NCBI GenBank assembly: GCA_015075625.1
Contig: JABTTZ010000003.1
Location: forward strand, 248,001 to 312,000
DNA: 64,000 nt
From: Anaerolineales bacterium
Lineage (GTDB): Bacteria; Chloroflexota; Anaerolineae; Aggregatilineales; UBA2796
Direction of reading: 5' to 3'
Shown here: positions 51,446 to 55,746 of the stretch, in pieces
Numbering within the stretch: the first letter of the stretch is position 1
Layout of the letters: each line of letters begins with the position of its first letter
The notes under the pieces: model-generated
Told to the model about the DNA's origin: nothing
Seen by the model: the letters and a program-made list of their open reading frames with translations, nothing else
The model's database searches: none
Made by a program: the position numbers and the translations under genes

Positions 51446-51473
51446 TTGCCTCAGCATGGCAATCCATTATAAT
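51446..51473 (+). promoter_or_regulatory. Promoter of the tandem cyclase operon
   Basis: TTGCCT (51446-51451) and TATAAT (51468-51473) are 16 bp apart. The -10 covers an in-frame ATG at 51472, which therefore cannot be the start of the message-encoded protein. Confidence 0.55.
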
Positions 51474-51507: not shown

Positions 51508-53262
51508 ATGACCGACACAACCACTACCATCACTCCGTTTGAGGTAGAGACCCTTCGCACCCTCTTGAAAGATGTCAGCGGGTTAGAGGGCATTTTGCGG
51601 GCAGAACGCTCGAAACTGCAAAAACTGGGGATGAGCCTCCCCCCGGGTACACTGGCTGGTTTGCAAGCCGTCCGTGCCGAATTTGAGGCGCTTCTAAAAC
51701 ACCACGAAACAAACCTTGTCGAACTCAGCCGCCTGCGTGAATTAAGCCGTACAGCCGCCCTGATCAATTCCACCCTCGATCTGAACGATGTCCTCAACGA
51801 AGTCATGGACACAGTGATCTCTTTGACCCGTGCCGAGCGCGGCTATGTCGTTCTAAAAAACCCCGAAACAGGCGAGTTGGAATTTCGCGTGGCGCGGGAT
51901 GTGGAACACCGCACTATGAGCGCCGACGAACTGATCGTCAGCAAGACGGTGATCGGCGGTGTTGCCAAGACGGGGATTCCGGTCGTCACCACCAACGCCG
52001 AACACGACCCCCGCTTTGAAAACGAGAAAAGCATCGTCAACTATGCCCTGCGCAGCATCCTGTGTGTACCGCTCATCCTGAAAGGGACGATCACGGGCGT
52101 TGTCTATACCGATAACCGTGTCAAACAGGGGTTGTTTGGCGAACAAGAGATGACCATGCTTCAGACCTTTGCCAACCAAGCGGCGGTTGCCATTGAAAAC
52201 GCCCGCTTGTATGAGCGCCTTCAGGCAAACATCGGGGAGATCACGGCGATCAACAACCTGCTCGATAATGTCTTTGCCTCTATCAGCAGCGGGATCATCA
52301 CCGTTGATGCCGAGGGCATTATCAGCCAAGTAAACGACGCCGCCTGCCATATTCTAGCGCTGTCGTCCGCCTGTGTGGGGCAGCCAATCTGGTCGCAGTG
52401 GGAGATGATCCATGCCGAAACGCTGCGGACGATCTTGGAAGATGGCATCGATGAATCGATTGAGATCGAGGCAGAGATTGCCGGACGTGGGCTGGTCAGC
52501 CTTGCCCTTCGCCTTAGCCCTCTCTATGGCTCTGGCGAGGCGATTGAGGGTGTGGTTATCGTTGTGGACGATCTCACCGAAAGCAAACAACGCGAGGCAA
52601 AGCTAGAGGTTGTGCGCCGTTACCTTCCTCCGGCAATGGTCGATAATATCCACAGCATTGATCGGCTTGGTTTGGGTGGGGAACGCCGTTATATCACAAC
52701 GATCTATGTCGATGTGCGCAATTTCAACCAACTTTCGCGGGAACTCTCTCCACAAGACTTCATGAACGTCCTGAACCGCTACCTCACCGTTGCTTCCGAT
52801 GAGATCATCAAACAAACCGGCGTCATTGATAAATACATGGGGAGCGAGGTCATGGGTTTATTCAACACCCAATTGAACCCCGCCGAAACCGATCACCCCT
52901 GGCGTGGGCTGCACGCCGCCCTTAATGCGGCAGATGAGTATGTCAAGTTCTACCGTCAGCAAGGCGAACCAGATGATGCCCTTTATTTTCGGATCGGTAT
53001 TCATGCCGGCATTGCTACATTGGGGAATGTGGGGAGCGAAGAACGCCGCGAATTTACCGCCATTGGGGATGCCATTAACCTCACCCACCGCCTTCTCGAA
53101 AACGCCAACACGGGTGAGATCATGATCAGCGACGAAACATGGGAGGCGTGCCGCGAACACCACCGCGCCCTGCCGCCTTATTTTAAGGTGGGCGACCCCG
53201 AACAGCTTTACGTGAAAGGACGCCGCGAACCGATCACTGTCCGGCGGATCAAGCGGCTTTAA
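51508..53262 (+). CDS. GAF-PAS-class III nucleotidyl cyclase, C2-like half (second metal Asp replaced by Ser)
   Basis: The start at ATG 51508 (584 residues) is set by the promoter that overlaps an earlier ATG. Order: helical N-terminus, GAF domain at about 85-245 (RAERGYVVLKNPETGELEF, LRSILCVPLILKG, NQAAVAIENARLYERL), PAS domain at about 250-370, cyclase domain at about 390-584. In the cyclase, Asp402 (first metal Asp) is present, but the second is Ser446 (KYMGSEVMGLF). Lys442 sits where the purine-binding Lys lies, and the transition-state pair Asn524/Arg528 (AINLTHRL) is intact, with Thr517 at the second purine-selecting position as in class IIIb enzymes. It should not be active as a homodimer. 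The next gene, a paralogue with the complementary set, starts 5 bp after the stop. Confidence 0.85.
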   Translation: MTDTTTTITPFEVETLRTLLKDVSGLEGILRAERSKLQKLGMSLPPGTLAGLQAVRAEFEALLKHHETNLVELSRLRELSRTAALINSTLDLNDVLNEVMDTVISLTRAERGYVVLKNPETGELEFRVARDVEHRTMSADELIVSKTVIGGVAKTGIPVVTTNAEHDPRFENEKSIVNYALRSILCVPLILKGTITGVVYTDNRVKQGLFGEQEMTMLQTFANQAAVAIENARLYERLQANIGEITAINNLLDNVFASISSGIITVDAEGIISQVNDAACHILALSSACVGQPIWSQWEMIHAETLRTILEDGIDESIEIEAEIAGRGLVSLALRLSPLYGSGEAIEGVVIVVDDLTESKQREAKLEVVRRYLPPAMVDNIHSIDRLGLGGERRYITTIYVDVRNFNQLSRELSPQDFMNVLNRYLTVASDEIIKQTGVIDKYMGSEVMGLFNTQLNPAETDHPWRGLHAALNAADEYVKFYRQQGEPDDALYFRIGIHAGIATLGNVGSEERREFTAIGDAINLTHRLLENANTGEIMISDETWEACREHHRALPPYFKVGDPEQLYVKGRREPITVRRIKRL

Positions 53263-53267
53263 ACGCT

Positions 53268-55004
53268 ATGCCAACCACACTAAACCTTAACATCAACGAA
53301 TCCTATTCACGGATCGGGACGAATGTTCGCACTCTTGCCGGAATGCTGCGGGCGCAGCGCGACCTCCTTGCCCAACGTGGGCTTGATATTGGCAAGGAGG
53401 CTATGGAAGGGCTAAACGCCTTTGCCGCCGATCTGGACAAAGTAACCCCCGACTTGATCAAATCCATGACCGAGCTAGATCAACTGCGCGAATTGGCGCG
53501 GACGACTCAAGTGACGAGTTCTGGAATGGATGTTAATCAAGTCCTCTCCGATGTGATCGATACCGTGATCACCCTCACAAAGGCAGAGCGCGGCTATATT
53601 GTCCTCAAAAACCCCGAAACTGAGGAGTTGGAGTTCAAATTTGCCCGCAACATGCGCCAAGCTGATCTCACCGAGGACGAACTGATCGTCAGCCGGACTG
53701 TCGTCGCCCGCGTTGCCGAATCTGGGCAGGCGATTGTCTCCACAAATGCCCAAGAAGACCCTCGCTTTGCCGGATCGTTGAGCATCGCTGGCTACATGCT
53801 GCGCAGCATCCTCTGCGTGCCGCTCATCCGTAAGGGGCTGGTCATTGGCGTTATCTATGCCGATAACCGCCTCCATCAGGGTATTTTCGGGGCGCATGAG
53901 GAACAGCTTGTCAGCGCCTTTGCCAACCAAGCGGCAATTGCCATTGAAAACGTTCGCCTCTTTGAACAACTGCGGGCAACACTCGCGGATATTACGGCAA
54001 TCCGTGACTTTATGGATAACGTCTTCGCCTCCATCGGCAGCGGCGTGATCACCACAGACCGCCAAGATGCGATCCAAACATTGAACCGGGCGGCGGCAAA
54101 AATACTCGATGTGCTAGAGGGCGAAGCGGCGCGTGGGCAGCCGCTCATGACCGTTTTCCCCCCTATGTACGATGGCTTTGAACGCCTGATTCACGAGGTG
54201 CGCGATTACAACCGCACCCAAGCGGTAGAAGTTGAACCTGTCTTGAGTGGACGGGGGCAGGTGAATCTCAATTTGAAACTCAGCCCCTTTAAGGATTCCC
54301 ACGCCGAAACACAAGGGGTCGCCATTGTGCTGGATGACCTGACCGCTGTGAAGCAGCAGCAGGCACAGTTGAGCGTCCTCCGCCGCTATCTAACCCCTGC
54401 CATGTTGGACAACATCCAGACCATTGCCGAGTTGGAATTGGGCGGTGTGGAGCGCGAAATCTCGGTCATTTCGTGCGATGTGCGCGGCTTCACCTCCTTT
54501 AGCGAGCGTATTCCCCCCGAACAGGTCATGGCGATTGTCAACCGCTACATGACGGTGAGCAGTGATGCCATTCACGAATATTCCGGAATCATTGATAAAT
54601 TCATGGGTGATGCAGTGGTGGGACTTTTTAACACGCAGTTAAATACCCTTGAGGATCACGCCGAACGGGCTGTCCTAACCGCCTTGCGGATGGTGGAAAA
54701 AGTCCGCGCCCTCCACGAGTCGCTGCCCCCCGAACAGCGCCTCAGCTATGGGATCGGCGTCCATACGGGCTTGGCAATTTTGGGCAATGTTGGCAGCCCT
54801 AGCCGTAAGGAATTTACCGCCATTGGGGAGACGCTGGAATTTGCCAAACTGCTGCAAGAAAACTGTCAGGGCGGCGAGATCATGATCAGCACCGTCACCT
54901 ATGAGCGGGTGAGCAAGGTTATCAAGGCTGAGCCAGCTCTGCCGCGCAAAATGAAGGAAACGCTCGAATTTTCCATGATGTATCAGGTCAAGGGGCGTGC
55001 CTGA
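53268..55004 (+). CDS. GAF-PAS-class III nucleotidyl cyclase, C1-like half (Asn/Arg pair lost)
   Basis: This 578-residue paralogue of the preceding protein has the same order of parts: N-terminal helices, GAF (AERGYIVLKNPETEELEF, LRSILCVPLIRKGL), PAS, and cyclase from about 390. Both metal Asp residues are kept, Asp404 (SCDVRGFTSFS) and Asp448 (KFMGDAVVGLF). The positions of the transition-state Asn and Arg are Glu524 and Leu528 (GETLEFAKLLQ). By class III rules it can bind metal-ATP but cannot finish the reaction alone. Tight linkage and opposite defects predict a heterodimer with its neighbour. Ligands of the GAF domains are unknown. Its stop overlaps the start of the glycosyltransferase gene. 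Confidence 0.85.
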   Translation: MPTTLNLNINESYSRIGTNVRTLAGMLRAQRDLLAQRGLDIGKEAMEGLNAFAADLDKVTPDLIKSMTELDQLRELARTTQVTSSGMDVNQVLSDVIDTVITLTKAERGYIVLKNPETEELEFKFARNMRQADLTEDELIVSRTVVARVAESGQAIVSTNAQEDPRFAGSLSIAGYMLRSILCVPLIRKGLVIGVIYADNRLHQGIFGAHEEQLVSAFANQAAIAIENVRLFEQLRATLADITAIRDFMDNVFASIGSGVITTDRQDAIQTLNRAAAKILDVLEGEAARGQPLMTVFPPMYDGFERLIHEVRDYNRTQAVEVEPVLSGRGQVNLNLKLSPFKDSHAETQGVAIVLDDLTAVKQQQAQLSVLRRYLTPAMLDNIQTIAELELGGVEREISVISCDVRGFTSFSERIPPEQVMAIVNRYMTVSSDAIHEYSGIIDKFMGDAVVGLFNTQLNTLEDHAERAVLTALRMVEKVRALHESLPPEQRLSYGIGVHTGLAILGNVGSPSRKEFTAIGETLEFAKLLQENCQGGEIMISTVTYERVSKVIKAEPALPRKMKETLEFSMMYQVKGRA

Positions 55005-55746
55005 TTCAGTGTGGGTGACTATCTTTGGCATCCGCACCACAGCGCAGACCTTTGCCGACGCCCTCAGCCAACTGACAACATGGAGCGCCGACCCCATTGG
55101 ACGGCGTTATGTATGCACCTGTCCGGTCTATACCTTGATGCGCGGCGTAGACGACCCCGCCGTTGGTGCGGCGCTGCGCCACGCCGACATGGTGACTGCC
55201 GATGGTATGCCCCTTGTTTGGGTGCAGCGCCATCGGGGATTTCCCCACGCTGAACGTGTGTATGGACCCGATCTGGTCTGGGGACTCTGCGAACGGACGG
55301 CGGAATCACCCCTTCGGCACGCTTTTTGGGGCGGCTTGCCGGGGATTCCTGAACGGATGGCGGCAGTGCTGGTGAAAACCTATCCCGGACTGCATGTCGC
55401 TGGTGCGGTCTCCCCTCCGGTACGCCCCCTTGAAAACCAGCCCGATGCAGCAGTCATTACACAACTTAACGCCCTAAATGCTGATGTTCTATGGGTGGGT
55501 TTGGGGTCGCCCAAGCAAGATCAATTCATGGCGCTCTACCGCCCCTATTTAACCGCCCCCCTGCTCATTGGAGTGGGCGCGGCGTTTGATCTGATCGCTG
55601 GTGTACGCCGCCAAGCCCCCCGTTGGATGCAGCGCAGCGGCTTAGAGTGGGTATTTCGCTTGGGACAGGAACCGCGCCGCTTGTGGCGGCGCTACCTGCT
55701 CTACAATGTGCGCTTTGTGTGGCGGCTGTGGCGAGAAAAGCCCTAA
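54997..55746 (+). CDS. WecG/TagA/CpsF-family glycosyltransferase
   Basis: The family signature is clear: TADGMPLVWVQRHRGF with a following ERVYGPDL, HAFWGGLPGIPERMAAVL, DVLWVGLGSPKQDQFMA, and GVGAAFDLIAGVRRQAPRWMQRSGLEWVFRLGQEPRRL. These enzymes add N-acetylmannosamine-type sugars to polyprenyl-linked GlcNAc for surface polymers. GTG 54997 overlaps the cyclase stop (GTGCCTGA), so translation is coupled to the cyclase pair; the link between them is unexplained. A 6-bp stem follows at 55750-55768. Confidence 0.9.
   Translation: MPDSVWVTIFGIRTTAQTFADALSQLTTWSADPIGRRYVCTCPVYTLMRGVDDPAVGAALRHADMVTADGMPLVWVQRHRGFPHAERVYGPDLVWGLCERTAESPLRHAFWGGLPGIPERMAAVLVKTYPGLHVAGAVSPPVRPLENQPDAAVITQLNALNADVLWVGLGSPKQDQFMALYRPYLTAPLLIGVGAAFDLIAGVRRQAPRWMQRSGLEWVFRLGQEPRRLWRRYLLYNVRFVWRLWREKP

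Follow-up and report, generated by a model that had tools for sequence, protein, structure and literature searches.

We consider it highly likely that two adjacent genes, here called A and B, in a 64,000-nucleotide stretch of an Anaerolineales genome (hereafter the window; contig JABTTZ010000003.1, positions 248,001 to 312,000 of the forward strand) together encode a class IIIb adenylyl cyclase that is an obligate heterodimer, with a single working site and one dead pocket. Such an enzyme very probably works only as the mixed A:B pair, as in animals, and A and B would form a two-part cyclase that should be inactive as long as its halves are apart. Split-site class III cyclases are a familiar feature of animals, found in the transmembrane and soluble adenylyl cyclases (tmAC and sAC) and in the soluble guanylyl cyclase (sGC). 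The present work suggests that a bacterial lineage reached the split-site design independently, as two separate genes, and the comparative evidence for the pair is unusually clean. Sister families still preserve the intact single-gene state together with many stages of decay, and ordinary enzyme assays make the origin of obligate heterodimers after duplication, whether adaptive or by a neutral ratchet, testable in this system.

Catalytic residues of the pair and of its relatives

An initial annotation, made from the letters of the window alone, had described A and B as neighbors 5 bp apart with the same domain order and complementary half-sites. Open reading frames and Pfam assignments bear out the adjacency and the shared GAF-PAS-cyclase order, and with PF00211 scores of 50.3 bits for A and 50.2 bits for B, against a curated cut-off of 21.9, both proteins belong to class III. 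Read codon by codon, A carries D402, K442, S446, T517, N524, and R528, and B carries D404, K444, D448, T517, E524, and L528; phmmer aligns both proteins to CyaB, CyaC, and Cya2 gap-free at the catalytic motifs, so that all residue assignments of the initial annotation for A and B prove correct. Beyond these, we found that A retains the first metal-binding Asp402 and that B retains Lys444 and Thr517, which means that B lacks the transition-state pair only.

Relatives were gathered from the window's order, its class, and a genome collection, and the six positions were read from one profile alignment. After removal of duplicates, this data set held 83 distinct adjacent pairs and 61 complete single copies, the latter from a sister family in the same order and from other orders of the class. 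A precedes B in 83/83 pairs. On the A side, Lys, Thr/Ser, Asn, and Arg are each present in 83/83 proteins, and the second metal position holds Asp in 0/83 (N 42, T 19, S 18, G 2, E 1, H 1); the first metal position is Asp in 42/82 and changed in 40/82, being Asp or Glu in 73/82 and nonacidic in 9. On the B side, the first and the second Asp are each found in 83/83 proteins, Arg in 0/83, and Asn in 12/83, with Lys kept in 71/83 (Gln in 12/83) and Thr/Ser in 58/83. Every complete single copy has all six residues (61/61; 52 with Thr, 9 with Ser). The split pattern is therefore present in 83/83 distinct pairs versus 0/61 complete single-copy relatives, far beyond chance. As judged from sequence, the split has no exception within an order of Chloroflexota, whose single-gene relatives keep a complete site. 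The initial annotation had suggested a search for gene pairs with the same complementary losses, and had named relatives in which the pair does not co-occur as evidence that would count against it; all 83 distinct pairs show these losses, and the incomplete single copies lie at contig ends.

The eight single copies with half of the pattern (loci L052, L061, L090, L097, L158, L176, L204, and L209) were considered as exceptions and rejected, since all of them sit at contig ends, and no genome with one member truly alone was seen among the collected relatives. In one subclade (L109, L118, L207, L212-L215, L217, L220, and L221), B has also lost Lys (to Gln) and Thr (to Ala or Gly), which is the most C1-like state. 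The pair-bearing records are Anaerolineae metagenome-assembled genomes (MAGs), some labeled Aggregatilineales or Phototrophicales, and in these relatives A and B mostly overlap (-4 bp in 31 pairs, -1 bp in 16 pairs). Outside the order, a phylum-wide search gave one strong match per genome, and a few genomes had a second, weaker match elsewhere.

Duplication and direction of decay

When the tree is rooted with other Chloroflexota classes, all A and B sequences fall into one clade with a support of 100 in the Shimodaira-Hasegawa-like approximate likelihood ratio test (SH-aLRT), and each of them forms one clade within it (99 for A, 99 for B). The sister of the A+B clade consists of intact single copies from a family of the same order (f3; SH-aLRT 93), and forcing f3 to group with the other single copies was rejected by the approximately unbiased (AU) test (p 0.0014). 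The rooted topology and this rejection point to one tandem duplication within the order after f3 had branched off, with the reciprocal loss taking place before the sampled families diverged.

Later decay was followed on trees built without the six catalytic columns. By parsimony, the first Asp of A changed 15 times, Lys of B 4 times, and Thr of B 8 times, with 0 changes at the required positions. All 27 of these 27 later changes thus fall on the half that the A:B site leaves unused (sign test, p 1.5e-8, an indicative value, as parsimony changes may include regains). Relaxation also follows this division by region. Among columns conserved in the single copies, those relaxed in A lie around the metal/phosphate loop (22, 25, 26, 31, 36, 66, and 70), and those relaxed in B lie around the Asn/Arg helix (141, 143, 144, and 148), plus position 69. 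At the level of alignment columns, this regional relaxation matches the expectation for one live and one dead pocket.

The proposed A:B heterodimer and competing explanations

We infer a physical A:B heterodimer in the cell, inactivity of either homodimer, ATP as the substrate, and a signaling output. A and B would form a parallel dimer through their N-terminal coil, GAF and PAS domains, and signaling helix (a coiled coil), and their catalytic domains would pair head-to-tail. In the working site, Asp404 and Asp448 of B would hold two metal ions, Lys442 and Thr517 of A would read adenine, and Asn524 and Arg528 of A would stabilize the transition state; the second pocket, where A lacks the second Asp and B lacks Asn and Arg, would be dead. 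ATP is the probable substrate because A carries the Lys/Thr pair. Input from GAF and PAS presumably travels through the helices of the dimer, and cAMP would act via CRP-like proteins of the genome, in which eleven cyclic-nucleotide-binding loci are possible receptors. In evolutionary terms, an ordinary GAF-PAS cyclase that worked as a homodimer would have been duplicated in tandem, and reciprocal loss would then have left the two copies mutually dependent.

Structure prediction is supportive of this arrangement. The model of A (mean predicted local distance difference test score [pLDDT] of 80.8) reaches target template modeling (TM) scores of ∼0.8 to CyaC, Cya2, and CyaB in Foldseek. In a few relatives, A and B share a frame across one stop codon, and from one of these (L040) we derived a linked construct of 828 amino acids, with the TAG read as a residue, that joins the catalytic domain of A to the entire B; it was folded with AlphaFold2 from an alignment (A3) without the A-only rows, giving a pLDDT of 80.6 and a predicted TM score of 0.53. 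VIA-align superposed this model on the adenylyl cyclase AC9 (9u3u) over 381 residues at 3.1 Å, spanning model residues 11 to 823 and both catalytic domains, and on sAC over 365 (4clf) and 368 (8coj) residues, both at 3.1 Å; one-domain structures align over ∼185 residues. These two-domain matches to AC9 and sAC suggest that, in the predicted arrangement, the catalytic domains of A and B are placed like C1 and C2. The central proposal of the initial annotation, an operon of complementary half-sites whose products form an obligate heterodimer with one live and one dead pocket, appears to stand in light of the pattern in 83 pairs, the intact single copies, the one duplication, and a predicted assembly that resembles C1/C2.

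Four points weigh against an obligate A:B heterodimer with a role-less second pocket. First, a near-invariant acidic residue (E/D in 80/83) directly follows the lost Asp in A. Second, B keeps Lys (71/83) and Thr/Ser (58/83), which a pocket without a role should not need. Third, 12 pairs keep Asn in B and have lost Arg alone, so that some residual activity of a B homodimer is possible. Fourth, folding a linked chain forces the two domains into proximity, AlphaFold2 knows assemblies of this kind, and the fold cannot tell A:B from A:A or B:B.

The first two of these, together with the Asp or Glu at the first metal position of A in 73/82, would also fit a scheme in which one subunit alone is catalytic as a homodimer, either B without Arg or A with Glu447 taking over from the missing second Asp, and its partner serves as a regulatory pseudoenzyme. 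We consider this very unlikely: Arg is missing from 83/83 B proteins and Asn from 71/83, whereas 83/83 A proteins have both but none has the second Asp, and with 12 B proteins also lacking the adenine-reading Lys and 9 A proteins nonacidic at the first metal position, neither subunit could generally be a homodimeric enzyme. Moreover, a pseudoenzyme is not expected to retain precisely the half-site that its partner is missing. A heterodimeric cyclase making another cyclic nucleotide, for example cGMP, is a further alternative, given that base specificity in class III shifts at the Lys and Thr positions and that, of 12 homologues from other Chloroflexota classes, six are complete and the other six deviate at Lys alone (Met or Ala). 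Lys and Thr/Ser in 83/83 A proteins are nevertheless the ATP-reading set, which makes this alternative highly improbable. The six deviating homologues themselves (L236, L237, L241, L242, L244, and L246), with the other five residues intact, may differ from the ATP type in base specificity. Least probable of all, the pair might make no cAMP and instead bind ATP or another nucleotide at its interface as a sensor, for which the dead pocket offers a possible site and Pseudomonas aeruginosa 6yii, a solved two-domain cyclase-like protein titled as an ATP-binding protein, a precedent; joint conservation of all six catalytic residues across the pair, including an Asn and an Arg that serve the transition state and not binding, argues against it.

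Within an obligate A:B heterodimer, the dead pocket, formed by the metal side of A facing the Lys/Thr side of B, could serve allosteric regulation by binding a ligand, much as the forskolin site does in mammalian cyclases. We regard this idea as doubtful, though it would account for why B mostly keeps Lys and Thr despite having no need of them and why A has fixed a new Glu; if true, it would mean that a bacterial two-gene cyclase is regulated via a degenerate site, evolved independently of eukaryotes. The new residue (Glu447, positions 52846 to 52848) is Ala in nearly all B proteins and single copies, and could possibly act as a shifted metal ligand, as a salt bridge closing the dead pocket, or as part of a new ligand site. 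A second residue typical of A, Arg495 (52990 to 52992), is Arg in 64/83 A proteins and nearly absent in B and in the single copies.

The sensor domains gave a different picture from the initial annotation, which had two different GAF/PAS sensors meeting on one enzyme. The GAF domains of A and B in the window are 59% identical, mean GAF identity among relatives is 0.52 between A and B, 0.55 within A, and 0.51 within B, and no GAF or PAS column was found to be fixed differently between the A and B clades. As no sensor column separates A from B, we dropped the notion of two different sensors.

Known systems and the locus

Judged by their residues, A and B appear to work like mammalian C1 and C2 and to be members of class III (IIIb) outside the tmAC, sAC, and sGC families. 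Together they hold complementary half-sites that give exactly one complete site, of the C1/C2 type, and Lys and Thr/Ser in 83/83 A proteins give the working site its class IIIb residues. As in mammalian tmACs (AC5 and AC9), one partner supplies the Asp pair and the other Lys, Asn, and Arg, leaving one dead pocket, and Ser replaces the second Asp in C2 as it does in A of the window. Unlike tmACs, A and B are bacterial, of independent origin, and encoded by two adjacent genes, with GAF and PAS domains instead of membrane bundles; A also has Glu after the lost Asp. The statement of the initial annotation that A shows exactly the mammalian C2 pattern therefore holds for the Ser in place of Asp and for Lys, Asn, and Arg, but not in its exactness, given the conserved Glu and the first Asp kept in about half of the pairs.

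Soluble adenylyl cyclase (ADCY10) and the bacterial sAC-like bicyclases likewise combine complementary C1 and C2 domains into one active site, yet on one chain, whereas A and B are two chains; they are two open reading frames in the window and in 83/83 pairs, which sets them apart from the one-polypeptide tmACs and sACs. Fused sAC-like cyclases occur in bacteria, and half-site mutants of mycobacterial Rv1625c reportedly complement each other in vitro, which together make the mechanism credible. CyaC from Spirulina, CyaB from P. aeruginosa, and Cya2 from Synechocystis are the closest solved catalytic domains in both sequence and fold and share the class IIIb Thr at the purine position, but they are homodimers with two sites and, unlike A (no second Asp in 83/83) and B (no Arg in 83/83), have all residues on each chain. 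The single-copy GAF-PAS cyclases of other Anaerolineae have the same architecture and belong to the same orthologous family as A and B; with six residues on one chain, they are expected to be homodimers.

Heterodimers of paralogous sensor-cyclases are also known. The alpha and beta subunits of sGC each join a sensor, a PAS-like domain, a coiled coil, and a cyclase domain (PMC2576301); unlike A and B, with GAF domains and ATP-reading residues, sGC is eukaryotic and uses a heme H-NOX domain and GTP, and Pfam found no H-NOX domain in A or B, only GAF, PAS, and cyclase. The chytrid NeoR/RGC rhodopsin guanylyl cyclases are obligate heterodimers of paralogous sensor-cyclases as well; RGC1 and RGC2 keep all catalytic residues (PMC8815786), so their obligate pairing does not stem from split half-sites. 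The same review describes heterodimeric class III cyclases particularly for higher eukaryotes (PMC8815786), and another paper models the replacement of homodimers by heterodimers after duplication in general (PMC11066126). Within the open-access literature, and for that scope alone, we found no class III cyclase from bacteria that is heterodimeric or has its site split over two genes, and no account of Chloroflexi cyclases, which is a weak absence.

The layout of the locus is given in Table 1. An in-frame ATG also lies upstream of the start of A, at 51472, and GGAG precedes 51508.

Table 1. Features of the A/B locus, in window coordinates
Feature	Position	Strand	Evidence
Gene A, GAF-PAS-class III cyclase, C2-like subunit, 584 aa	51508..53262	+	ORF, Pfam, codons
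A GAF domain, residues 91-229	51778..52194	+	Pfam PF01590, E 2e-17
A PAS domain, residues 261-358	52288..52581	+	Pfam PF13426, E 6.4e-7
A class III cyclase domain, residues 396-577	52693..53238	+	Pfam PF00211, E 2.8e-13; Foldseek to CyaC, Cya2, CyaB
A Asp402, first metal Asp (Me1)	52711..52713	+	codons
A Lys442, adenine-recognition Lys	52831..52833	+	codons
A Ser446 at second metal Asp position, then Glu447	52843..52848	+	codons
A Thr517, class IIIb adenine-recognition position	53056..53058	+	codons
A Asn524 and Arg528, transition-state pair	53077..53091	+	codons
Spacer, 5 bp, A stop to B ATG	53263..53267	+	
Gene B, GAF-PAS-class III cyclase, C1-like subunit, 578 aa	53268..55004	+	ORF, Pfam, codons
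B GAF domain, residues 88-226	53529..53945	+	Pfam PF01590, E 1.4e-17
B PAS domain, residues 254-362	54027..54353	+	Pfam PF08448, E 6.1e-8
B class III cyclase domain, residues 397-550	54456..54917	+	Pfam PF00211, E 2.9e-13; phmmer to Cya2
B Asp404, first metal Asp	54477..54479	+	codons
B Lys444, superfluous for the A:B site	54597..54599	+	codons
B Asp448, second metal Asp	54609..54611	+	codons
B Glu524 and Leu528 where Asn and Arg are expected	54837..54851	+	codons

A WecG/TagA-type glycosyltransferase gene (54997 to 55746) overlaps the end of B and does not stand beside the pair in relatives. More generally, the window's flanking genes (among them those for an alpha/beta hydrolase, WecG, a LysM protein, and a DNA methylase) were compared by BLAST with the sequence around every other locus (short at some loci) and gave no match even at 1e-5, and as the flanking genes do not recur, the context is uninformative on the output.

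A few relatives deserve separate mention. An apparent fused A-B protein of 1,144 amino acids at L057 was dismissed, being an open frame that extends B upstream over A in another frame and not a fusion. At L059 (genome G022), A and B are both split over several frames, through either assembly error or decay of the pair. L173, labeled as the cyanobacterium Pleurocapsa minor, shares its contig with G018 of the window's order and is probably a mislabeled MAG. The window's own genome holds two further cyclases of note. One (L003, 1195 to 2820, + strand; contig C2, ∼1003254 to 1004558) is a single protein of 542 amino acids with two split cyclase domains, the first with the second-metal Asp and Gln/His for Asn/Arg and the second with Lys, Ser for Asp, Asn, and Arg; by these residues it looks like an sAC-like fused bicyclase, so that this genome would have a fused and a two-gene version of one design. 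The other (L002, 328 to 2049, + strand; contig C1) is a degenerate receiver-GAF-cyclase (Lys to Asn, second Asp to Ser, Asn to Gly, Arg kept). Finally, stand-alone proteins (G000 contig C1, 777606 to 778313, and similar frames of ∼300 amino acids in relatives) match B at ∼40% identity over its N-terminal coil and GAF part only.

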